Assembly (NCBI GenBank): GCA_017559545.1
Contig: JAFYRK010000007.1
Span: 1 to 64,000, forward strand
Direction: 5' to 3'
Length of the DNA: 64,000 nt
Origin: Bacteroidales bacterium
GTDB taxonomy: Bacteria; Bacteroidota; Bacteroidia; Bacteroidales; UBA932
Part shown: positions 36,568 through 50,061 of the stretch, piece after piece
Layout: each line of letters begins with the position of its first letter
Position numbering within the stretch: position 1 is the first letter of the stretch
The notes under the pieces: model-generated
What the model was told of the DNA's origin: nothing
Database searches by the model: none
The model's input: the letters and a program-made list of their open reading frames with translations, nothing else
Program-made: the position numbers and the translations under genes

Positions 36568-37644
36568 ATGGAAAATGACATCAAAAACCAGAAGGTTGAG
36601 ATTGAAATTGTCAGGCATAAAGGTCTATTTGAAATATTAAGAGATCCGAAGCAGCTATGGAAAGTCATGCTGGCGATGTTTCTGCTCATCATAGTTCTTT
36701 TCTTCGGCCTTGCCGTAGTCGTGGTCTCTGTCAAGTCAATGTACCCTTATGAGACCGTGCGCACCAACCCATATGGCGCAACGATCCTTGAGGATGAAGA
36801 CAAGGAAGTTATCTACTGGCTATTCAACACGGCAGAGCTTTGGGCAAACTCCGGCATCGAGGTCAAGGCTGATGACGTACTGACGATAAGATCATCGGGA
36901 AAGATGCATACTGCGATTCATCACCTTGTGAGAGATGCCGAAAAAAACAAGGCATTAGATGACAGATGGCTAGGAACAGAAGGCGCACCTGTAAGGAAGG
37001 ACAAACAGGCCAGGGATGAGCTCCGAACCAAATTCCGAATCGCTGAGCAAAAGCCAGAAAGCATACTTCTGATGCAGGTAATCGACTATAACCATTCCAA
37101 CCTGTCGACCGAATTCATCACTCGTTCTGATTCCAAGCATCAGGATATCCTGTCATGTAAAAATTCAAATGAAGTCATTGTAATCGGCAAGGAGAGAAGA
37201 AATCTTCGTCCGGGAAAAGACGGAATCCTCCACTTTGCCGCAAACGATATAGTGCTGACAGATAAGGTGATTGACTCCATGTACAAACAGTACATGGATT
37301 CCGTACTGGCATATGATTCTACACAACAGATATTCAACGAGACAGCAACAAAAGAGTGGAAAGCCCTCTATGAAGAATGCATTAAAGGAGATGCATCTAT
37401 AGAAGAAAGACTCGACACAAACTCGACACTATATAAAGCACTGGAAAAGCTACATCAAAGAAAAGACAAGAATAAATACACTAATGTCGGTCTTGCATTC
37501 AAGATGTATGAGCAGCAGGATACGTTAACATATCCTGTCGTGAACGAGCTCACATTTTACAAGAAAAAACAATTCCGTGATGCATGGTTTGCCGACAACA
37601 TCGGCTCTTTCCTCATAGTAATCGAACGTAAAAAGGAGAAATAG
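36568..37644 (+). CDS. Membrane-anchored protein with a LecA/PA-IL-like external domain, paralogue 1
   Basis: This 358-residue protein has a short cytoplasmic start, one membrane helix at about 32-56, and a periplasmic domain. That domain has three motifs in the order seen in LecA-type beta sandwiches: LWANSGIEVKADDVLTIRSS (about 91-110), GILHFAANDI (219-228) and WFADNIGSFLIVIE (340-353). In LecA the last two motifs are adjacent and hold the calcium ligands (an Asp in the ND motif, then two Asn before SG). Here about 110 extra residues separate them. The resemblance is by eye and remote. No function can be given. The next gene starts 2 bases later and shares all three motifs. Confidence 0.7.
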   Translation: MENDIKNQKVEIEIVRHKGLFEILRDPKQLWKVMLAMFLLIIVLFFGLAVVVVSVKSMYPYETVRTNPYGATILEDEDKEVIYWLFNTAELWANSGIEVKADDVLTIRSSGKMHTAIHHLVRDAEKNKALDDRWLGTEGAPVRKDKQARDELRTKFRIAEQKPESILLMQVIDYNHSNLSTEFITRSDSKHQDILSCKNSNEVIVIGKERRNLRPGKDGILHFAANDIVLTDKVIDSMYKQYMDSVLAYDSTQQIFNETATKEWKALYEECIKGDASIEERLDTNSTLYKALEKLHQRKDKNKYTNVGLAFKMYEQQDTLTYPVVNELTFYKKKQFRDAWFADNIGSFLIVIERKKEK

Positions 37645-37646
37645 CC

Positions 37647-39005
37647 ATGGATTTTGATGCAAATACAGTGGTAGACAACTTGATGAACGGAATCAGTGCC
37701 GAAACCAAGGAAGATCTCCTTGTCACTGATGAAGTACTGTTCTCAAAAATGATAAGTGATGGTGATCCACAAGATGACACGGATGAAAGTATCAGATGGG
37801 ATGGATTCTGCTGGGATCTCAAGTGGGATCGTCTGTTTCCAATATCAAGAGCGGTACTTTGCTTCATTTGGTCATGCTTCATGGGGCTCGTTTTTGCCAT
37901 CTATTCAGCTTTCGAGTGGATCGCATTCAGACTGACAGGCAAAAGGAAGAATTTACGTAGGTCCATAAGGACTAATTCCGTTATTCTTATTGGAGGAATG
38001 ATAGCCACCATCACAATGATTGTGGTGATGCTGGTGTTCTTCATCAAGGACGTACTTCTTTTCCCTGCCGACAATCACATAAACGATTTTGGTACTGTCA
38101 CTATGGCACAACCTTGCGGAGTCGAACATAATGTCCTATTGGTCAACAGCTGTGAATTCTGGGCTGAAACCGGAATCCGTGTGGTCAAGGGAGATGTCGT
38201 CAAGATTGCCGCTTCTGGTGCATTTTATGGAAATCTTGTGGATTTCCATGATTCTGCGCTTAAAAACAGAGAGAGGTCATATGCTCCTGATAACTTTCAT
38301 TGGAAAAAAGACGACGCACCTGGTTTCATCCAGAAACTGAAGCAACGGATATGCAAAACCGGAGCCCCAAGTGAGGAGACTCAGTTCTGCGTTTATGGCA
38401 GAAATCAAGAAAGCGATGCACGTTACGGCTCTCTGCTATATCAGATAAAGTCTGAGGGGCAAACATCCTCTGTACAGAACCCCAAGGATAAGGAACAGGT
38501 AATATTTCAGGTCAACCCCCTGAAGGACAGGGCATTTGAATTCAAAGCAAAGAAGTCAGGAGTTCTTTGCTTTGCAATCAATGACATCTATCTTGATGAT
38601 CCAGAGTTCATAAATGAGATCATTGATTATGACCTACGTAGATATGCAGAATACAAGAAGGATTCAACAAAACCGCGTCCCTTGTTATCCGAATCCACAC
38701 TGTCTCGAATTGATGGCAATCCAGCAGAACGCAAGATTTTCATCACTTCGATATTGGAGGGTAGGAAATCAAAGACAAACCCATTGCCTGCCAATAAGTC
38801 AATGTGGTACGATGATAACATCGGCGAAATTCTACTAAATGTAAACATCGAACGAAAGAATCCAGGAAATCTCTTCTCGTTTCTGACAAAACCATTCAGA
38901 TGGATATTCCACAATCATGGATGGAGATGGATACTTGGCATCCTGTGCCTGCTGTTGACAGCAGACACATTCATCGGCGCTGGAGTAAGACGAAAAAGAC
39001 AATAA
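37647..39005 (+). CDS. Membrane-anchored protein with a LecA/PA-IL-like external domain, paralogue 2
   Basis: This 452-residue protein has an acidic cytoplasmic start and membrane helices at about 66-94 and 109-138. Its external domain repeats the motifs of the previous gene: FWAETGIRVVKGDVVKIAAS (171-190), GVLCFAINDI (305-314) and WYDDNIGEILLNVNI (387-401). A further hydrophobic helix lies near 425-445, followed by RRKRQ. The two proteins arose by tandem duplication and are cotranscribed (2-base gap), so a heteromeric envelope complex is plausible. The gene ends 12 bases from the stop of the convergent giant helicase gene. Whether the sets act together is unknown. Confidence 0.7.
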   Translation: MDFDANTVVDNLMNGISAETKEDLLVTDEVLFSKMISDGDPQDDTDESIRWDGFCWDLKWDRLFPISRAVLCFIWSCFMGLVFAIYSAFEWIAFRLTGKRKNLRRSIRTNSVILIGGMIATITMIVVMLVFFIKDVLLFPADNHINDFGTVTMAQPCGVEHNVLLVNSCEFWAETGIRVVKGDVVKIAASGAFYGNLVDFHDSALKNRERSYAPDNFHWKKDDAPGFIQKLKQRICKTGAPSEETQFCVYGRNQESDARYGSLLYQIKSEGQTSSVQNPKDKEQVIFQVNPLKDRAFEFKAKKSGVLCFAINDIYLDDPEFINEIIDYDLRRYAEYKKDSTKPRPLLSESTLSRIDGNPAERKIFITSILEGRKSKTNPLPANKSMWYDDNIGEILLNVNIERKNPGNLFSFLTKPFRWIFHNHGWRWILGILCLLLTADTFIGAGVRRKRQ

Positions 39006-39017
39006 AACTCTCCCCTC

Positions 39018-42000
39018 CTACTTCACCGAAACTCTTTCGCGGCTGGAAAGGTCAATAAGGGAGAGTCTGGCTGCCAGCTCTATACCTGACCTCATGGCCA
39101 TATAGACGTTGTCGCCGGTTCTGCTGTAGCCGAATGTCTTTCCCATCTCACGCACAAGGCTCTCAAACGGCATGGCTCCCTGCTGTCTGAGGACATACAA
39201 GGCCGCATTCTTGGACTCCATGTCCGGGATATGCATAGCTTCTCTTTCGTTTGAATATCTTATCTGGCAATAGTCTTGAGGATTCTGGGAATCCTTCCAG
39301 TATACAGGTCCAGCCTCTTGAGTGGTCTTCAGATTCATGCTGTCAATAATAGATTGCATATACGCTGACATTCTTGGCCCCATCCTCGCAATATCTACTG
39401 CTCGGAGCACCCTTTTGCAAAGCAGATCATGCTTTATCGGGGCTTCGATCTCGATCACCTCCCTGATGTAACCCTTTATGAGTTCATCGTAGAATCCGTT
39501 CACCACACCTTCCGCCGAAAGTGGGAAAGGTGCCAAATCTGCGAATGAATATGGGAGGAGCTGGCTTGTGGATGTGCTATTGTTATTAACGGGTTCCACA
39601 GTTGGAGTGAATCCGGAATTATAAAGTCTTATCGGCTCTTCTTCCACCTCCACATAACTTCCAGCTATTGCATCATCGATCTTTGCACATATATCTCTCA
39701 CAGCCGCATCCTTATCGCTCCACCAATCCAAGGCCCAGAGACGCCATATCTTCCAACCAAGCTTACGAAGCACGCCCACCTGGACAATCTCACGATCTCT
39801 TGCCGAACGGGACGATGCATAATTATATCCGTCACAAAGAATGCCAAGGACATATGACGACGAGTCTAAAGGATTTACAATTCCTATATCTATCTTATAG
39901 CCAGATGATCCGATATTTGTGCGAGCCTCATATCCCTTCTCCCGGATAGCTTTTGCAACAGCTTCCACGAAACCATCTGACGACGACGCAGGTACAGTTT
40001 CAACAGACTCCGATGCGCCAGCTGCAACTCCCCTTTCAGCATACTCCAAGAACTCCTTCAGACCGGCAACACCCTCTGCAGAAGTCCTCCTAAGGTCAAT
40101 CTGCTCGGAGCGAAGAGTAGAGAAAACCTTCATCTCATAGCGTGCTCGCGACACTGCCACATTGAGTCTTCGCCAACCTCCTTCCCTGTTCAAAGGTCCG
40201 AAATTAAGCGTAACCTTGCCCGCCTTATCCTGTCCGTATCCAATTGAGAAGAGAATCACGTCCCTCTCGTCACCCTGGACATTCTCAAGGTTCTTGATGA
40301 AGATAGGTTCCTCGCATTCAAGAGCAATCTTTTCAAGATCCGGACGCTTGACAAAAAGGTCGTTAAGCATATCCTCCAGAAGCGACTGCTGGTTGGTGTT
40401 GAATGTCACCACGCCGATGCTCATCTTAGACAGGATAGGATCATCCAGTCTGCGCTCAATATCCTTGATGATAGCCTCGGCCTCGGCCTTATTCTGTCTG
40501 CTGCCACCACGGTCGTAAACTCCTTCCACATGCTGATAGCCTATCTTGGTACATAAGTCATCCGGAGACGGGAAGGTGTGGAGTTTATTCTCATAGTATT
40601 TGCTGTTGCTGAATGCTATGAGACTCTCGTGCTTGCTTCTGTAATGCCATCTGAGATACTTCGAAGGCAGAGTCAATGCAAGACAGTCATCCAGAATGCT
40701 CTCCAGATCCTCGATATGAGAATTATCCTCATCAAAGGACGTAGCGTTGAAGAAAGTAGTCGGAGGAAGCTGCTTAGGGTCACCCACAACTATAACGCTG
40801 CTACCACGGGCAATCGTTCCGACCGCCTCACATGTCGGCATCTGGGAAGCCTCGTCGAAGATGACAAGGTCGAACTTCATTCCACCAGCCTCAATATACT
40901 GGGCTACGGACATCGGGCTCATGAGCATGCAAGGGCACATCCTATGCAGGAGATCCTGGATACTTGCAAAGAAGTTGCGTAATGAAACACCCCTGCAGCC
41001 GTTGCGGATGTTGCGTTGAAGAATACCCACCTCGGAGTTCTGTGAAGCCTCTTTCTGAAACGCCGGAAGAGAAGATGCAATCTGGGCAAACAGTTCCTCC
41101 CTGGCCAAGGTCTCAAAGTCCTTGCACAGTCCTCTGAATCGCCTGATCTTTTCCTCGAACAATACGCCGTGGAAAAGCTGCAGATCCGGTTCCATTGTCA
41201 GGATATGCTCTGCGTAAGCCTTATACAGAGCCTTATGGAAGGCATCCTTAACAGCATCCGGGCCATATGAGCATGTCTCTATCTGCTCAGCAATCTCACC
41301 GAATCCGATAGTGCAGATATTCTCCTTATGCTTATTGTAAAGAACCCAGCTTCGGATCTTATCCCTTCCATTGTACCATCTTGAAATAAGGTCAATTGCA
41401 GCGGCAAAGACATCCCCTGCAGGTTCAGGCATACGCGCTCCAAGCTTATCAATGGCTATTGCAAGACGCTCACGGAGCACCTCCCTCTCGTCAAGTATGC
41501 GATTGAACACATCGCTTCCACCACTCTTAAGGATGGATGCCAAGGCACATAAAGTCCTGTTCATGGCTGCACGATCGGCAATGCGCTTGCCTAAAATCGA
41601 CCTGACACTCCTTGCGACTACGCAGGACTCTCTCACTTTAGCCCAATCGGTATCATATCCATTAATGACACTCCTGACGAACGCGATACTGCGATTCAGA
41701 TCAGCAATGAAACGATCTGCCTCCTGGAACGACTTTACTTGCTTCAGAACACTCAGTACCTGCTCGGCTGGAACAGGTTTAGAGCAATAGGTTGCAAGCC
41801 TCTTGAGGAATTTCCTGCCGGAGAAGAATCTTACCAGAGCCATCTTCGACTGGATATCTCTCCACTGTGTCTCATACTCCTTGACGTTGATCTCCAAAAG
41901 ATCCTCGCCGTATTCAGCAACAATAAGTTTCCTCAACGGATCACGGAGCACGCCTTTTTCAACGGCGTCCTCGATAGCGGCAAGCGAGCACTCCGACTCA

Positions 42001-44777
42001 CCAAGTATCGAAGCATGAAAACCTTCGGTTGTCAGAGGATAGCATAACTCCATGAGGAAATCATACTCCTCCTTTATGATATCACCGGAAGGGGTATTGA
42101 AAACCTGCTCACGGAAAGACTGGACCTTATGCTCCAATGATTCGATGAGAGAAAGTATCTGTGGCAGAGAGTTCAAGGCATTCTCAACTGAAGCATTGTA
42201 CTCTGTAGCATCTATGCCACGCAGAGGGTTCTCCGAAGGATTGCCTATGATATTGAGCACTGCCTTCAGTTCGTCCAACGCCACCTCCATCCTGGCAACC
42301 ATATCACCTGTAACAGTTTCCGCCTTGGATGCTGTCATGTCGAATTCAGGACACGACTCATCGATGGAAGTATACCTTGATATGCAGTCATAAAGCGACA
42401 AGCCCAACGGATAGGCCTTATGGAGCGTCTGGATGCAGGCATTCATCTCATCACGCACGCTGTTGATATGCTCAGCCTCGACACGATACTCCTCGGGGGA
42501 TTTAGTCATTGCTACCTCTGAAGTGCGCTTGAGCTGGGCAAGGACAGTGGATTTCTTTGCCTTGTTGGAATGCAGTTCCAGACAGAACGGTCCCAATCCT
42601 ATGGAATTGAGTCTGTTCTGCACAACCTCAAGTGCGGCCATCTTTTCGGCTACGAAAAGTACCTTCTTGCCTCGATACAATGCATTCGCAATGATATTGG
42701 TGATGGTCTGCGATTTACCTGTACCAGGAGGACCATGAAGGATATAGCTCTTACCGCTAAGGGCTGCGGTAATTGCCTCGATCTGAGACGAGTCTGCACT
42801 TATCGGCAGAAGTATATCGCCGGCCCTGAACTTCTTGTCCAGGTCTTCTGTCTCCTTGATTTCCACATTGATGCTCGGATCCACAACGCCACTCATCAGA
42901 CTGGACACGATAGGGCTCTCACAGAGGACATCTGAATTGTTATGGATATCATTCCACATTATGAACTTATTGAACGAGAAATTACCCAGAACAGCCTGCT
43001 CGACTACGTCCCAGTTCCTCTGCTCCATAATCTTCGTCCTTATCGTATTGAACACCAAAGACGTGTCAATACCGCTGACATCCTTAGGCAGCGGCTCCAG
43101 ACCTCCGATAGTGATATCAAACATCTGGCGAAGAAGTTCCAGCATCGTGATATTCAGCATCGTATCCTCGTCCCTGCTTCTGACCACATAACCGCTGGAT
43201 GCTGACTTTCTGACAATCTCCACAGGGACAAGGAGGATAGGGGCATACCTTGGCTTCTGGCTGGTAGGAGTCTCAAACCATTTGAGCAGTCCAATAGCCA
43301 GATACAAAGTATTGGCTCCATTCTCCTCCATGGATGTCTTTGCGGTCCTATACAGGTGGGTCAGAGACTTCCTCAAAGTCTCCTCATCCAGATATGCGTG
43401 AATCCTGTTTTGTCTGAGTTCCTGCTGGATGAGCTCATGAATCGGATCAGTTGCGTTGATTGTCTTGTACAAACCGTCACTCAGGAGCTCGCAATCCCAA
43501 TCTGTAGGCTTAGGACACACGATGAAGTCCTCGTTATTGGCCAAAGCATCCTCCAATGCGCCGATATTAGCTGATATGAAAGGTATATTACCCCTTGTAA
43601 CCTTAAGATTCAGAAGGTTATTCCTAAGAGTCAGATCAAGCAGTTTTCTCTCCCATATGGTCTTTCTGCTGACCACTGCCTCCGTATCAATGATAAGGTC
43701 TGTCGCACTCATCTCGGTCGGCGCCGCACAAACCCTTTCCACTTCAGTATCTTCAATAACATAGTTTCCTTTATCATCCACAGTCCTGAGCGGGAGAGGT
43801 CTGACCTGTCCTATCCTTGCCCTGCACACATCGATAAAGAAAGAAACGTCACCGCTCATCATCTTTTGCTTGGCGGCATCACAGGCTTTATCAAAGCTTG
43901 CATGACTGCCTTCGTTCATAGCGGTACACTCCACGACGAGTATCTCATTCATACCGTCTGCCATACGCTTGGTAATCAGAGCGGGATCATCCACCACACT
44001 GTCCGGAAACGAATCAGGAGTCAGCCAGCAACCGGCAAAGGCATGATCGTCAGTAAGGATTATCAACGGATGAAGGCCGGCCGCTTCAAGACAGCTGGCA
44101 TACAACATGGTCATGTCAAGACAGTTACCCATCTTCAGGGATATGATTTCATCCACAGTCCTGATGCGTTGTCCATGAGACTCAAAGCTCGCAGGCGATA
44201 CACAATATGTTATCATTTTCTCCGCGATAGCCTCATAAATTGCCGCCATCTGGAACTTAACCCTGTTGTGATCCCTGTTCTGGTAAGCGTTCAGAGACGG
44301 ATCACCTGTCCACTTTCCAAGGAACTCCGATGCTTTCTTATTGATGACAGCGACACCAGGATGATTAGGGGTCGAGAATGCGGCAAGGCTTTCAGGCATG
44401 ACGCATGAGCCTCCCCACTCATTGAAAGTGAGGATGGATATATCACAATGTTTTTCCGCCAGGAGTTCGTCACCAGATCTGGCTGTAAGATTTACGGTTC
44501 CGGCGATCCTTTCTGTAAGACTGGCCAAAAACTCAGTTGATACCGATATCGGCACAACAGAAATCTTCACAAACTTCCCTGGGGCGATAGAATCCAGACG
44601 CTGAGTATACTCCAACGCAAATTCCGGTTCAAAACGTACAACAAGATCGATGTCATTGATCTGTTCTTCACCGGTGTTCCTCAAAACGATTTCACGGATA
44701 ACGGGAACGTGATTCTGCTGCAATGCAAAATTAATCACCGGGATATAACTCAAGCTGATTTCCAGGCCTTTATTCAT
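39018..44777 (-). CDS. Giant DUF4011/SF1 helicase/Vsr-like nuclease/DUF3320 protein with transglutaminase-like domain
   Basis: This 1,919-residue cytoplasmic protein starts at ATG 44777; an upstream TTG at 44801 would add 8 residues. Order: beta-rich N-terminus (to about 125); a transglutaminase-like cysteine-protease fold with GNCLDMTMLY (Cys219) and DDHAFAGCW (His245); a DUF4011 region with WERKLLDLTLRNNLLN (about 375-395); SF1 helicase with Walker A GPPGTGKS (682-689), Walker B FDEAS (about 1305), GDPKQLPPT and VAVSRARYEMKVF. Then come a Vsr/MTES_1575-type nuclease (SSGYKIDIGI, LCDGYNYAS, ARDREIVQVGVLRKLGW) and a DUF3320 C-terminus. Similar proteins are listed among candidate single-gene anti-phage systems. 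Defence is inferred, not shown here. All major motifs look intact. Confidence 0.9.
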   Translation of the reverse strand: MNKGLEISLSYIPVINFALQQNHVPVIREIVLRNTGEEQINDIDLVVRFEPEFALEYTQRLDSIAPGKFVKISVVPISVSTEFLASLTERIAGTVNLTARSGDELLAEKHCDISILTFNEWGGSCVMPESLAAFSTPNHPGVAVINKKASEFLGKWTGDPSLNAYQNRDHNRVKFQMAAIYEAIAEKMITYCVSPASFESHGQRIRTVDEIISLKMGNCLDMTMLYASCLEAAGLHPLIILTDDHAFAGCWLTPDSFPDSVVDDPALITKRMADGMNEILVVECTAMNEGSHASFDKACDAAKQKMMSGDVSFFIDVCRARIGQVRPLPLRTVDDKGNYVIEDTEVERVCAAPTEMSATDLIIDTEAVVSRKTIWERKLLDLTLRNNLLNLKVTRGNIPFISANIGALEDALANNEDFIVCPKPTDWDCELLSDGLYKTINATDPIHELIQQELRQNRIHAYLDEETLRKSLTHLYRTAKTSMEENGANTLYLAIGLLKWFETPTSQKPRYAPILLVPVEIVRKSASSGYVVRSRDEDTMLNITMLELLRQMFDITIGGLEPLPKDVSGIDTSLVFNTIRTKIMEQRNWDVVEQAVLGNFSFNKFIMWNDIHNNSDVLCESPIVSSLMSGVVDPSINVEIKETEDLDKKFRAGDILLPISADSSQIEAITAALSGKSYILHGPPGTGKSQTITNIIANALYRGKKVLFVAEKMAALEVVQNRLNSIGLGPFCLELHSNKAKKSTVLAQLKRTSEVAMTKSPEEYRVEAEHINSVRDEMNACIQTLHKAYPLGLSLYDCISRYTSIDESCPEFDMTASKAETVTGDMVARMEVALDELKAVLNIIGNPSENPLRGIDATEYNASVENALNSLPQILSLIESLEHKVQSFREQVFNTPSGDIIKEEYDFLMELCYPLTTEGFHASILGESECSLAAIEDAVEKGVLRDPLRKLIVAEYGEDLLEINVKEYETQWRDIQSKMALVRFFSGRKFLKRLATYCSKPVPAEQVLSVLKQVKSFQEADRFIADLNRSIAFVRSVINGYDTDWAKVRESCVVARSVRSILGKRIADRAAMNRTLCALASILKSGGSDVFNRILDEREVLRERLAIAIDKLGARMPEPAGDVFAAAIDLISRWYNGRDKIRSWVLYNKHKENICTIGFGEIAEQIETCSYGPDAVKDAFHKALYKAYAEHILTMEPDLQLFHGVLFEEKIRRFRGLCKDFETLAREELFAQIASSLPAFQKEASQNSEVGILQRNIRNGCRGVSLRNFFASIQDLLHRMCPCMLMSPMSVAQYIEAGGMKFDLVIFDEASQMPTCEAVGTIARGSSVIVVGDPKQLPPTTFFNATSFDEDNSHIEDLESILDDCLALTLPSKYLRWHYRSKHESLIAFSNSKYYENKLHTFPSPDDLCTKIGYQHVEGVYDRGGSRQNKAEAEAIIKDIERRLDDPILSKMSIGVVTFNTNQQSLLEDMLNDLFVKRPDLEKIALECEEPIFIKNLENVQGDERDVILFSIGYGQDKAGKVTLNFGPLNREGGWRRLNVAVSRARYEMKVFSTLRSEQIDLRRTSAEGVAGLKEFLEYAERGVAAGASESVETVPASSSDGFVEAVAKAIREKGYEARTNIGSSGYKIDIGIVNPLDSSSYVLGILCDGYNYASSRSARDREIVQVGVLRKLGWKIWRLWALDWWSDKDAAVRDICAKIDDAIAGSYVEVEEEPIRLYNSGFTPTVEPVNNNSTSTSQLLPYSFADLAPFPLSAEGVVNGFYDELIKGYIREVIEIEAPIKHDLLCKRVLRAVDIARMGPRMSAYMQSIIDSMNLKTTQEAGPVYWKDSQNPQDYCQIRYSNEREAMHIPDMESKNAALYVLRQQGAMPFESLVREMGKTFGYSRTGDNVYMAMRSGIELAARLSLIDLSSRERVSVK

Positions 44778-44981
44778 TGGGTTTGGATGTCTGTTTATCA
44801 ATTATACTTTTGAATTCAATGTGAGGATTCTTGATAGAATATCCCCTTATATAGTATTATACGGCATTGATGAAATTTTGTGATGGTCTTCTATAAAATT
44901 TTTCCATCATTATATAATAAAACTCCCGGAACTTCCGTCCCAGGAGTCATGAACCGTCCCTCCCTCAATAAGATAACATTC

Positions 44982-46328: not shown

Positions 46329-48032
46329 ATGGAAAGAATAATCGAATGCGTGCCTAATTTCAGTGAGGGCCGCAACATGGAAGTCATCAACTCGATCGTC
46401 ACTTCGATCGAAAAGGCAGGTGGAGTAAAGGTTCTGGACGTCGATCCGGGCGAAGCCACAAACCGCACCGTGGTAACATTCGTAGGAAGCCCTGAGGCTG
46501 TCCTCGAGGCTGCGTTCCAGGGAGTGAAGCGCGCAGGCGAGCTTATCGACATGCGTCAGCATCATGGAGCTCATCCACGTTCAGGTGCCACTGACGTGCT
46601 TCCACTCATCCCTATTTCCGGAATAACACTCGAAGAATGCGCTGAACTGGCAAGAAAGCTGGCTGAGCGCATTTATAATGAGCTAGATATCCCATGCTAC
46701 TGCTATGAGGCAGCAGCACAGAAACCTGAGAGAAAGAACCTCGCAGTATGCCGTGCTGGTGAATATGAGGCTCTGCCTGAGAAGATGGCAGACCCTCAGC
46801 GTCAGCCAGACTTCGGTCCAGGCGAATATACTGAGCGCGCTGCTCAGGCAGGCGCTACCAACGTAGGAGCGCGTGACTTCCTCATCGCTGTGAACTATAA
46901 CCTCAACACGACTTCAACACGTCGCGCAAATGCGATTGCATACGATGTACGAGAGAAGGGACGTCCAAAGAGAGAGGGCAACCCAATCACAGGAAAGATC
47001 GTAAAGGACGAGAACGGCAAGACCGTTATGATTCCTGGTACATTGAAGGGCTGCAAGGCTATCGGATGGTTCATTGATGAATATGGCATCGCTCAGGTAT
47101 CAATGAACATCACAGACATCAACACTACCCCACTCCACGTCGCATTCGACGAAGTATGCCGCGCAGCTCAGGCACGTGGTCTCCGCGTGACAGGTACTGA
47201 GATCGTAGGTCTTGTGCCTAAGCGTACACTCATCGAGGCTGGCCGATATTTCCTTGAGAAGCAGCAGCGTTCTACAGGTATCTCTGACGAAGAGATCATC
47301 AAGATCGCAGTGAAATCCATGGGCCTCGACGACCTCAAGCCGTTCGAGCCTAAGGAGAAGGTGATCGAGTACCTCATCGAGGACGAGGCGACTGCAGCAG
47401 CAAAGGAGAGACTCGTACGCATGACATGCAAGGGCTTCGCCAATGAGACTGCATCAGAGTCACCTGCTCCAGGCGGTGGATCGATCTCAGCATACATGGG
47501 CGCTCTCGGAGCTGCACTTGGAACAATGGTGGCAAACCTTTCATCTCACAAGGCCGGATGGGATGCCCGTTGGAAGGAGTTCTCTGACTGGGCTGACAAG
47601 GGACAGGCTGTTATGAACAGACTTCTCGCCCTGGTTGATGAGGATACAGCTGCATTCGACAAGATCATGGCTGCTCTCGGCATGCCTAAGGGATCTGAGG
47701 AGGAGAAGGCTGCGCGCGCTGCCGCTCTTGAGGCTGCAACACTCTATGCGACTGAGGTTCCATTGAAGACCATGAAGGCTTCTCTCGAGGTATTCCCTAT
47801 CGTGAAGGCTATGGCTACAGAGGGTAATCCTGCATCAGTGTCTGACGCAGGCGTAGGCGCACTCGCTGCACGCAGTGCCGTTCTCGGAGCCCAGATGAAC
47901 GTGCGCATCAATGCAGCAGGCCTTGCTGATAAGGTTGCAGCCGCAAAGCTCTGCGCAGAGGCAGCCGAAATCGCTGCTGCTGCCATCGCCGCAGAGGCAG
48001 AAGTACTCGAAATCGTTAACGGTAAGCTCTAA
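46329..48032 (+). CDS. ftcD: Bifunctional glutamate formimidoyltransferase / formimidoyl-THF cyclodeaminase (fused)
   Basis: This 567-residue protein is a fusion. Residues 1-330 are the formimidoyltransferase (ERIIECVPNFSEGRNMEV start, QHHGAHPRSGATDVLPLIPI, NYNLNTTSTRRANAIAYDVR). Residues about 360-560 are the cyclodeaminase (FANETASESPAPGGGSISAY, then helices rich in Ala). It transfers the formimino group of N-formimino-glutamate to tetrahydrofolate, giving glutamate, and then releases ammonia to form 5,10-methenyl-THF. The layout equals mammalian FTCD; many bacteria have two separate genes. It is followed by hutU after 7 bases and supplies the last step of the histidine pathway encoded here. 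Confidence 0.95.
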   Translation: MERIIECVPNFSEGRNMEVINSIVTSIEKAGGVKVLDVDPGEATNRTVVTFVGSPEAVLEAAFQGVKRAGELIDMRQHHGAHPRSGATDVLPLIPISGITLEECAELARKLAERIYNELDIPCYCYEAAAQKPERKNLAVCRAGEYEALPEKMADPQRQPDFGPGEYTERAAQAGATNVGARDFLIAVNYNLNTTSTRRANAIAYDVREKGRPKREGNPITGKIVKDENGKTVMIPGTLKGCKAIGWFIDEYGIAQVSMNITDINTTPLHVAFDEVCRAAQARGLRVTGTEIVGLVPKRTLIEAGRYFLEKQQRSTGISDEEIIKIAVKSMGLDDLKPFEPKEKVIEYLIEDEATAAAKERLVRMTCKGFANETASESPAPGGGSISAYMGALGAALGTMVANLSSHKAGWDARWKEFSDWADKGQAVMNRLLALVDEDTAAFDKIMAALGMPKGSEEEKAARAAALEAATLYATEVPLKTMKASLEVFPIVKAMATEGNPASVSDAGVGALAARSAVLGAQMNVRINAAGLADKVAAAKLCAEAAEIAAAAIAAEAEVLEIVNGKL

Positions 48033-48039
48033 GATTGAT

Positions 48040-50061
48040 ATGAACAGATTCCATGAAGACATATTGGCAGGTATTCCGGCAGTGCTTCCGGAGCCTAAGC
48101 CTTATGATACTACAGTAAGCCATGCCCCTAAGCGCAAGGAGATCCTCAGCGCAGAGGAGAAGGTACTGGCAATCAAGAATGCCCTCCGCTACTTCCCTGC
48201 CGAGCACCATAAGATGCTCGCTGAGGAGTTCGCGCAGGAGCTCAAGGAGTACGGACGCATCTACATGTACCGTCTCCGTCCTGACTACGAGATGTACGCA
48301 CGCCCTATCGACGAGTATCCTGCTAAGTCAAAGCAGGCCGCCGCGATCATGGCTATGATCCAGAACAACCTTGACTACCGAGTGGCTCAGCACCCACACG
48401 AGCTGATCACATACGGTGGTAACGGAGCGGTGTTCCAGAATTGGGCACAGTATCGCCTCGTTATGCAGTACCTCGCCACAATGACTGACGAGCAGACTCT
48501 CGTGATGTACTCGGGCCACCCGCTCGGACTCTTCCCAAGCCATAAGGACGCCCCACGCGTGATCGTGACTAACGGTATGGTGATTCCGAACTACTCGAAG
48601 CCTGACCACTGGGAGAAGTTCAACGCTCTCGGAGTGTCGCAGTACGGCCAGATGACCGCAGGTTCATATATGTACATCGGCCCTCAGGGCATCGTCCACG
48701 GTACTACAATCACCGTGATGAACGCAGCACGCAAGCAGCTCAAGGCTCGCGGTCTCGCCGGCACTGAGGAGAACATGAAGGGTATGCTCTTCGTGACTGC
48801 AGGTCTCGGCGGCATGTCAGGCGCACAGCCTAAGGCCGGCGTGATTTCAGGCGTAGTGAGCGTATGTGCAGAAGTTAACCCTCATGCTGCGCACAAACGT
48901 CACGACCAAGGCTGGGTTGACGAAATCCATGAGGACCTTGACGTGCTCATCCCTCGCATCCGCAAGGCTATGAAGGACAAGGAGATCATCTCCATAGCAT
49001 ACCTCGGCAACGTTGTTGACCTTTGGGAGAGGCTTGCAGAGGAGAATGTGCACGTAGACCTCGGTTCAGACCAGACATCGCTCCACAACCCATGGGCAGG
49101 TGGATACTACCCTGTGGGATATTCATATGAGGAATCTAACCGCATGATGGCTGAGGAGCCGGAGAAGTTCAGAGAGTGCGTGCAGGAGTCCCTCCGCCGC
49201 CACGCTGCTGCCGTCAACAAGCTTGCTGACAGAGGTATGTACTTCTTCGACTATGGTAACGCATTCCTCCTCGAGGCATCACGCGCAGGTGCTGACGTAG
49301 TACGCGAGGACGGACGTTTCAAGTATCCATCATACGTACAGGACATCATGGGACCTCTTTTCTTCGACTATGGATTCGGTCCGTTCCGTTGGGTATGTAT
49401 GTCCGAGAATCCAGAGGACCTCGCGAAGTCAGATGCAATCGCAGCCAAGGTTCTCCGCGAGATCATGGCAGAGGCACCGGAGGAGATCCAAGGCCAGATG
49501 ATGGACAACATCCGCTGGATCGAGGAAGCAGGCCGCAACAACCTCGTGGTAGGTTCACAGGCACGTATCCTCTACGCTGACTGCGAAGGCCGTACAAAGA
49601 TCGCCCTTGCATTCAACGAGGCTATCAAGAACGGTGAGATTTCAGCCCCTATCGTTCTCGGACGTGACCACCACGACGTCTCAGGTACAGACTCACCGTT
49701 CCGTGAGACATCTAACATCTATGACGGTTCGCAGTTCTGCGCCGACATGGCAGTGCACAATGTCATCGGTGACGGATTCCGTGGCGCCACATGGGTATCT
49801 ATCCATAACGGCGGCGGAGTCGGCTGGGGCGAGGTAATGAACGGTGGATTCGGTATGGTCATCGACGGTTCAGAGGATTCTGACCGCCATATCAAGGATA
49901 TGCTCCTTTGGGATGTGAACAACGGTATCGCACGTCGCAGCTGGGCACGTAACGAGGGTGCCATGAACGCTATCAAGCGTGAAATGGAACGCACACCTGG
50001 CTTGAAGGTGACCCTTCCTAACATCGCTGACGAGCAGATGATCAAGGAAATCCTGGGCTAG
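48040..50061 (+). CDS. hutU: Urocanate hydratase (urocanase)
   Basis: This 673-residue cytoplasmic enzyme with tightly bound NAD converts urocanate to 4-imidazolone-5-propionate. Clear segments are LITYGGNGAVFQNWAQYRL, QTLVMYSGHPLGLFPS, MTAGSYMYIGPQGIVHGTT, VTAGLGGMSGAQPKA, DQTSLHNPWAGGYYPVG and HNGGGVGWGEVMNGGFGMV. It is longer than the roughly 557-residue proteobacterial form. The long-form length, with an insert in the C-terminal half, is common in Bacteroidetes. I used the ATG 7 bases after ftcD; the earlier in-frame start lies inside ftcD. Codons are strongly C/G-ending. Confidence 0.96.
   Translation: MNRFHEDILAGIPAVLPEPKPYDTTVSHAPKRKEILSAEEKVLAIKNALRYFPAEHHKMLAEEFAQELKEYGRIYMYRLRPDYEMYARPIDEYPAKSKQAAAIMAMIQNNLDYRVAQHPHELITYGGNGAVFQNWAQYRLVMQYLATMTDEQTLVMYSGHPLGLFPSHKDAPRVIVTNGMVIPNYSKPDHWEKFNALGVSQYGQMTAGSYMYIGPQGIVHGTTITVMNAARKQLKARGLAGTEENMKGMLFVTAGLGGMSGAQPKAGVISGVVSVCAEVNPHAAHKRHDQGWVDEIHEDLDVLIPRIRKAMKDKEIISIAYLGNVVDLWERLAEENVHVDLGSDQTSLHNPWAGGYYPVGYSYEESNRMMAEEPEKFRECVQESLRRHAAAVNKLADRGMYFFDYGNAFLLEASRAGADVVREDGRFKYPSYVQDIMGPLFFDYGFGPFRWVCMSENPEDLAKSDAIAAKVLREIMAEAPEEIQGQMMDNIRWIEEAGRNNLVVGSQARILYADCEGRTKIALAFNEAIKNGEISAPIVLGRDHHDVSGTDSPFRETSNIYDGSQFCADMAVHNVIGDGFRGATWVSIHNGGGVGWGEVMNGGFGMVIDGSEDSDRHIKDMLLWDVNNGIARRSWARNEGAMNAIKREMERTPGLKVTLPNIADEQMIKEILG

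Follow-up and report, generated by a model that had tools for sequence, protein, structure and literature searches.

Does a single, very long gene in a metabolic neighborhood defend its cell from phages by itself, and has such a gene been named before? The question is raised by the stretch of 64,000 nucleotides analyzed here (the window; positions 1 to 64,000 of contig JAFYRK010000007.1, Bacteroidales bacterium, assembly GCA_017559545.1), which carries on its reverse strand, at 39018..44777, a gene of 1919 amino acids counted from its ATG; counted from an alternative in-frame start, TTG at 44801, the length would be 1927 amino acids. A sequence-only reading of the window had proposed this gene as a candidate single-gene phage defense. 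Its product (P0001) matches the NCBIfam equivalog NF058533.1, 'anti-phage protein ProA', over its full length (model positions 1-1903 of 1903, protein residues 24-1894) with 2061 bits against a curated cutoff of 1500. The search with defense-system models that the sequence-only reading had called for also returned the PADLOC model PDC-S37, which covers residues 382-1910 (model positions 12-1533 of 1550) with 1188 bits, a score for which no cutoff is given. The end-to-end match to NF058533.1 and the match to PDC-S37 show that the window protein belongs to an already named family. What had been regarded as a candidate is therefore one more diverged, intact member of a named anti-phage family, and the proposal of single-gene defense gains from the annotation of the whole family by name but is less new than supposed.

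The architecture described from the letters was confirmed by one open frame and by Pfam. Reading from the N terminus, with all features on the reverse strand, the protein consists of a predicted beta-sandwich (residues 1-120, 44418..44777), a transglutaminase-like cysteine domain with C219, H245, and D264 (residues 121-340, 43758..44417), DUF4011 (43131..43646), a superfamily 1 (SF1) helicase of the AAA_11/AAA_12 kind with Walker A K688 and Walker B D1308-E1309 (40122..42794), a Vsr-like MTES_1575 nuclease with D1630 and D1649 (39678..39971), DUF3320 (39366..39491), and a predicted C-terminal winged helix (residues 1844-1919, 39021..39248). DUF4011, the helicase, the nuclease, and DUF3320 were placed by Pfam, and about 400 residues in the middle of the helicase region are variable. 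For the N-terminal domain, Pfam offered DUF553 alone, with a score below the cutoff, and PDB sequence searches with profiles of the N- and C-terminal parts gave no credible match. The single open frame and the retained motifs ruled out a chance frame or a pseudogene.

On balance, the window's ProA probably defends the cell from phage alone, as a DNA-targeting single protein. Behind this reading stand the profile-based domain assignments, the conservation of catalytic residues, membership in the family, a patchy distribution, and relatives on plasmids. The family name and what is known of the domains suggest the defensive role, the kind of substrate of the cysteine domain, and an order of events: the SF1 helicase would travel along phage DNA as it invades or replicates, the predicted Vsr-like nuclease would cut that DNA, and the C-terminal winged helices may help to hold it. 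With the helicase on DNA, the cysteine domain would then target a protein, with cleavage or cross-linking as the likeliest outcome. The window copy would appear to need no partner, and no retron was seen beside it.

A core gene shared by all relatives, which the sequence-only reading had set against a defensive role, is not what we found: ProA exceeded the cutoff in 4 of the 101 genomes of the genus, with strong partial matches in two further ones (G010 and G025; genomes are labeled G and loci L), and it is absent at three places where the lipocalin and urocanase genes that flank it in the window are kept. Farther afield, it exceeded the cutoff in 17 of 296 Bacteroidota genomes and in 27 of 99 Bacteroides genomes. 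Relatives occur across phyla and on plasmids, where 324 records had matches and 61 of these covered at least 80% of the query. Carriage by phages was considered and rejected, the sole match being an unannotated 11.4-kb 'Bacteriophage sp.' record (44%). A scan of IMG/VR with P0001, which has only close relatives within its reach, gave no match, and the same result was obtained with the retron reverse transcriptase described below.

This distribution bears on two other functions. SF1 helicases with nucleases serve in DNA repair, and such known combinations, together with the place of the window's ProA amid metabolic genes, would accord with a housekeeping or stress DNA-repair helicase-nuclease; however, its patchiness within the genus and its relatives on plasmids and across phyla make this function improbable. 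The matches on plasmid records are what rivalry between elements would lead one to expect, had ProA acted mainly on plasmids or other mobile elements and not on phages. The NCBI family name, however, is that of an anti-phage protein, and we consider an activity aimed chiefly at plasmids quite doubtful.

The N-terminal cysteine domain is well conserved, with a putative fold match to the transglutaminase-like cysteine superfamily and with its triad kept almost throughout (C219 in 62 of 63 sequences, H245 and D264 in 63 of 63). The sequence-only reading had seen in it an added, protease-like third activity; the domain is, however, a property of the full-length family and is absent from short natural forms. 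Among the matches in the 296 Bacteroidota genomes, 13 begin no later than model position 58 and extend to at least 1720. Another 11, long but devoid of the cysteine domain, begin at 338-359 and extend to at least 1734; 4 of these 11 are over the ProA cutoff. The ten short natural relatives whose loci were read (L155-L164, about 1550-1620 amino acids) begin with DUF4011 and have no N-terminal cysteine domain. Because natural relatives without it exist, the cysteine domain is, judging from sequence comparison, an accessory module of ProA. A short form made of two genes, one of them supplying the cysteine domain in trans, was rejected, since no such gene occurs in the stretches read around the 10 short-form loci. 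A ProA-type cysteine domain is also present in separate proteins (L166-L172), some about 400 and some about 830 amino acids long; two of the longer ones have weak TPR matches in Pfam. ProA is in two adjacent frames in G129, where the frames are the N-terminal part and the remainder, and at L165 (4955-10206), where the split falls within DUF4011 and is either a disruption or a natural two-gene arrangement.

Several observations weigh against defense by the window's ProA as we describe it. PADLOC, run on 16 other proteins of the window, gave only weak PDC-M43B matches, in one protein of 1410 amino acids, and no defense island was seen around ProA among the same proteins. Open-licence PubMed Central yielded no paper from which the name ProA stems. 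The plasmid count takes in partial matches and may thus mix in other DUF4011 helicases. In addition, the lack of ProA in most Bacteroidota genomes is compatible with defense and proves nothing, and natural forms exist that do without a cysteine domain.

We compared the flanks of ProA relatives, at first at 38 loci and then in a full set of 80, of which 62 have at least 1.5 kb downstream of ProA. A gene of 355-418 amino acids recurred directly downstream of ProA, convergent with it, in 10 of the 38 loci. It is a reverse transcriptase (RT) according to Pfam (4 of 4 scanned), among PADLOC models RT_III-A scores highest for it (7 of 7 scanned, 349-356 bits), and it carries the motifs YADD (10 of 10) and NAxxH (9 of 10). 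In the full set, a retron RT lies downstream of ProA in 13 of 62 loci (L028, L033, L034, L035, L039, L044, L046, L048, L050, L054, L068, L072, and L100), usually tail to tail, with a gap of 1-36 bases in the five loci where both stop codons were mapped. Exceptions to this spacing are L046, with a gap of about 350 bases, and L072, with two genes in between. Read by eye, the N termini of the RT of L034 (14000-15130) and of nine others are hydrophobic and resemble membrane anchors; that of L100 has its hydrophobic stretch behind a misplaced start. Another locus, L056, which lacks this RT, has a weak match (32%) to a different one.

Upstream of the RT lies a noncoding RNA (ncRNA) with an 11-pair terminal stem, the sequence TTTAGCA, and a GAGG/CCTC hairpin, highly conserved and with little covariation. 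A model built from 9 of the 13 ncRNAs (those of L033, L035, L072, and L100 were not used) matched all 13 RT-linked loci, and it matched neither the window nor any of the 16 loci searched among the 49 without RT. Rfam found nothing in L034 13000-16500, the sole stretch searched. The window itself has no RT match, nor does its 69%-complete genome at an E value of 1e-40. In the ProA tree, all RT-linked rows fall into one subclade of 23 rows (local support, 92), which includes 8 RT-less rows, and the window protein stands in a separate clade of 10 rows where no RT was seen.

The two genes also occur together when they are not neighbors. With thresholds of E 1e-100 for ProA and E 1e-40 for the RT, ProA was found in 31 and the RT in 17 of 99 Bacteroides genomes, the RT being present in 17 of the 31 genomes with ProA and in 0 of the 68 without it (Fisher test, P value = 4.8e-11, which ignores kinship). 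The pair is adjacent in 8 of the 17 genomes and unlinked in 9, either separated by more than 850 kb of the same contig (four) or on different contigs (five). The ncRNA is kept at 9 of 9 unlinked RTs (88-129 bits), and seven neighbors of three of these RTs, scanned with Pfam, are transporters, peptide deformylase, and similar proteins of a housekeeping or transport-like kind. At the site between DUF5686 and rpsA, G864 and G799 have the RT alone, G827 has RT and ProA, and G815 has neither; across Bacteroides this junction is variable (L285, L286, L301, L302, and L304), and may be empty, contain a different gene, or carry the retron, with or without ProA. An rpsA tree of 85 genomes, in which one branch (G847) is absurdly long, gave 5 independent pairs; ProA followed the RT in 4.4 of them on average and never went the opposite way, and the kin-corrected median P value is 0.0625, five pairs being too few to reach 0.05. 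Of 393 Bacteroidales genomes, 3 have a close RT (55% identity or more), and in two of these it adjoins ProA. In the third, G745, the 20 kb read at the RT and its ncRNA (L182, contig C136) contain no ProA, nor do the stretches read for five RTs of the same search that are more distant. One genome, G870, has ProA in two frames.

These results make the link between RT and ProA in Bacteroides suggestive. That all 17 genomes with the RT have ProA, 9 of them unlinked, and that 13 of 62 loci have a retron suggests that some members of the family serve as retron effectors. For the window's own protein, this would mean an effector held inactive until infection by RT, ncRNA, and RT-made DNA, with the retron lost from the window copy or never present there. 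The position of the RT tail to tail with ProA, the ncRNA at 13 of 13 RT loci, and the unremarkable neighbors of the unlinked RTs are in line with such control, but 49 of the 62 loci have no such RT, none was seen in the window's clade, and G745 and the five distant RTs do without ProA in the stretches read. Furthermore, the kin-corrected test has few pairs and a tree with one aberrant branch, the ncRNA covaries little and mostly served to build its own model, the ncRNA search covered 16 of the 49 RT-less loci, the branch of RT-linked ProAs has a local support of 92, and ProA is in two frames in G870. In Retron-Sda1, a similar type III case, the RT was dispensable for defense against the phage tested (PMC12548924). 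We therefore consider it unlikely that the window's ProA is such an effector, and action as a single protein stays our preferred reading of the window gene. Tentatively, it is possible that an undescribed type of retron has ProA as its effector in Bacteroides, Dysgonomonas, Tannerella, and Apibacter. There a membrane-anchored type III-A RT and its ncRNA would control ProA, even across distances of hundreds of kilobases; ProAs like that of the window would then be the retron-free ancestor or an escapee.

The surroundings of the window's ProA consist of rhamnose genes on one side and of lipocalin, formiminotransferase, and urocanase genes (histidine degradation) on the other. The latter three are together in G080, G026 (two contigs), and G090; in G080 and both G026 contigs, neither ProA nor rhamnose genes occur in the 4 to 9.5 kb read past lipocalin, and the G090 contig stops just past that gene. 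In G032 and G024, lipocalin is separate from the other two, and the neighbors of the nearest named relatives (L022 and L027) differ from those in the window. The absence of ProA beside kept lipocalin-urocanase genes and the other neighbors in L022 and L027 indicate that ProA is accessory at the window site, in a comparison of empty sites that draws no exact junction. The urocanase frame (47911-50061) overlaps the formiminotransferase-cyclodeaminase gene; its family match starts at residue 128, so that its true start likely lies downstream. The uncharacterized genes that had been reported beside ProA are there: two adjacent genes of 358 and 452 amino acids (36568..39005, forward strand), convergent with ProA and weakly similar to each other (24%), with a similar pair in G097. 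As partners of ProA they were rejected, since, of the 101 genus genomes, just one other (G097) has weak matches to them, and ProA has no match there; the pair probably lies outside the ProA system.

The wider retron pattern matters more than the window gene alone. Although its annotation is that of a stand-alone protein, ProA goes together with one retron clade even where the two are unlinked, which opens a direct test of the recruitment of effectors by retrons. Natural forms that have or lack the cysteine domain, and that have or lack the retron, are ready comparisons of the role of each module.

Among known systems, the RT of ProA relatives matches that of type III-A retrons best but is set apart by its N-terminal hydrophobic segment. 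The accessory proteins that mark type III retrons are a phosphoribosyltransferase and one that binds DNA (PMC12548924), and the retron of a Rhizobium relative (L190) has a phosphoribosyltransferase where the RTs described here have ProA beside them. Neither accessory was found in the annotated Bacteroides finegoldii record (L189) or among those neighbors that were scanned, and a link between ProA and retrons was not found in print in open-licence PubMed Central. Membership in Hhe (NF042953.1 and PADLOC Hhe) was rejected at 792 bits against a cutoff of 2000; Hhe shares the second helicase half and the nuclease with ProA, the best stretch being 1147-1709 only. PDC-S37 resembles the window's ProA from DUF4011 through the C terminus, but its model of 1550 positions is without the N-terminal cysteine domain. 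Within NF058533.1, the window protein is an ordinary member with no visible difference. The MTES_1575 protein of Microbacterium testaceum, as described in PMC3710099, likewise joins a transglutaminase, an SF1 helicase, a Vsr restriction endonuclease, and two winged helix-turn-helix domains in a single chain; it has in addition a fused HEPN domain, for which the window's ProA gave no Pfam match at 0.01. The ProA-type combination of domains was already in print in 2013 (PMC3710099).
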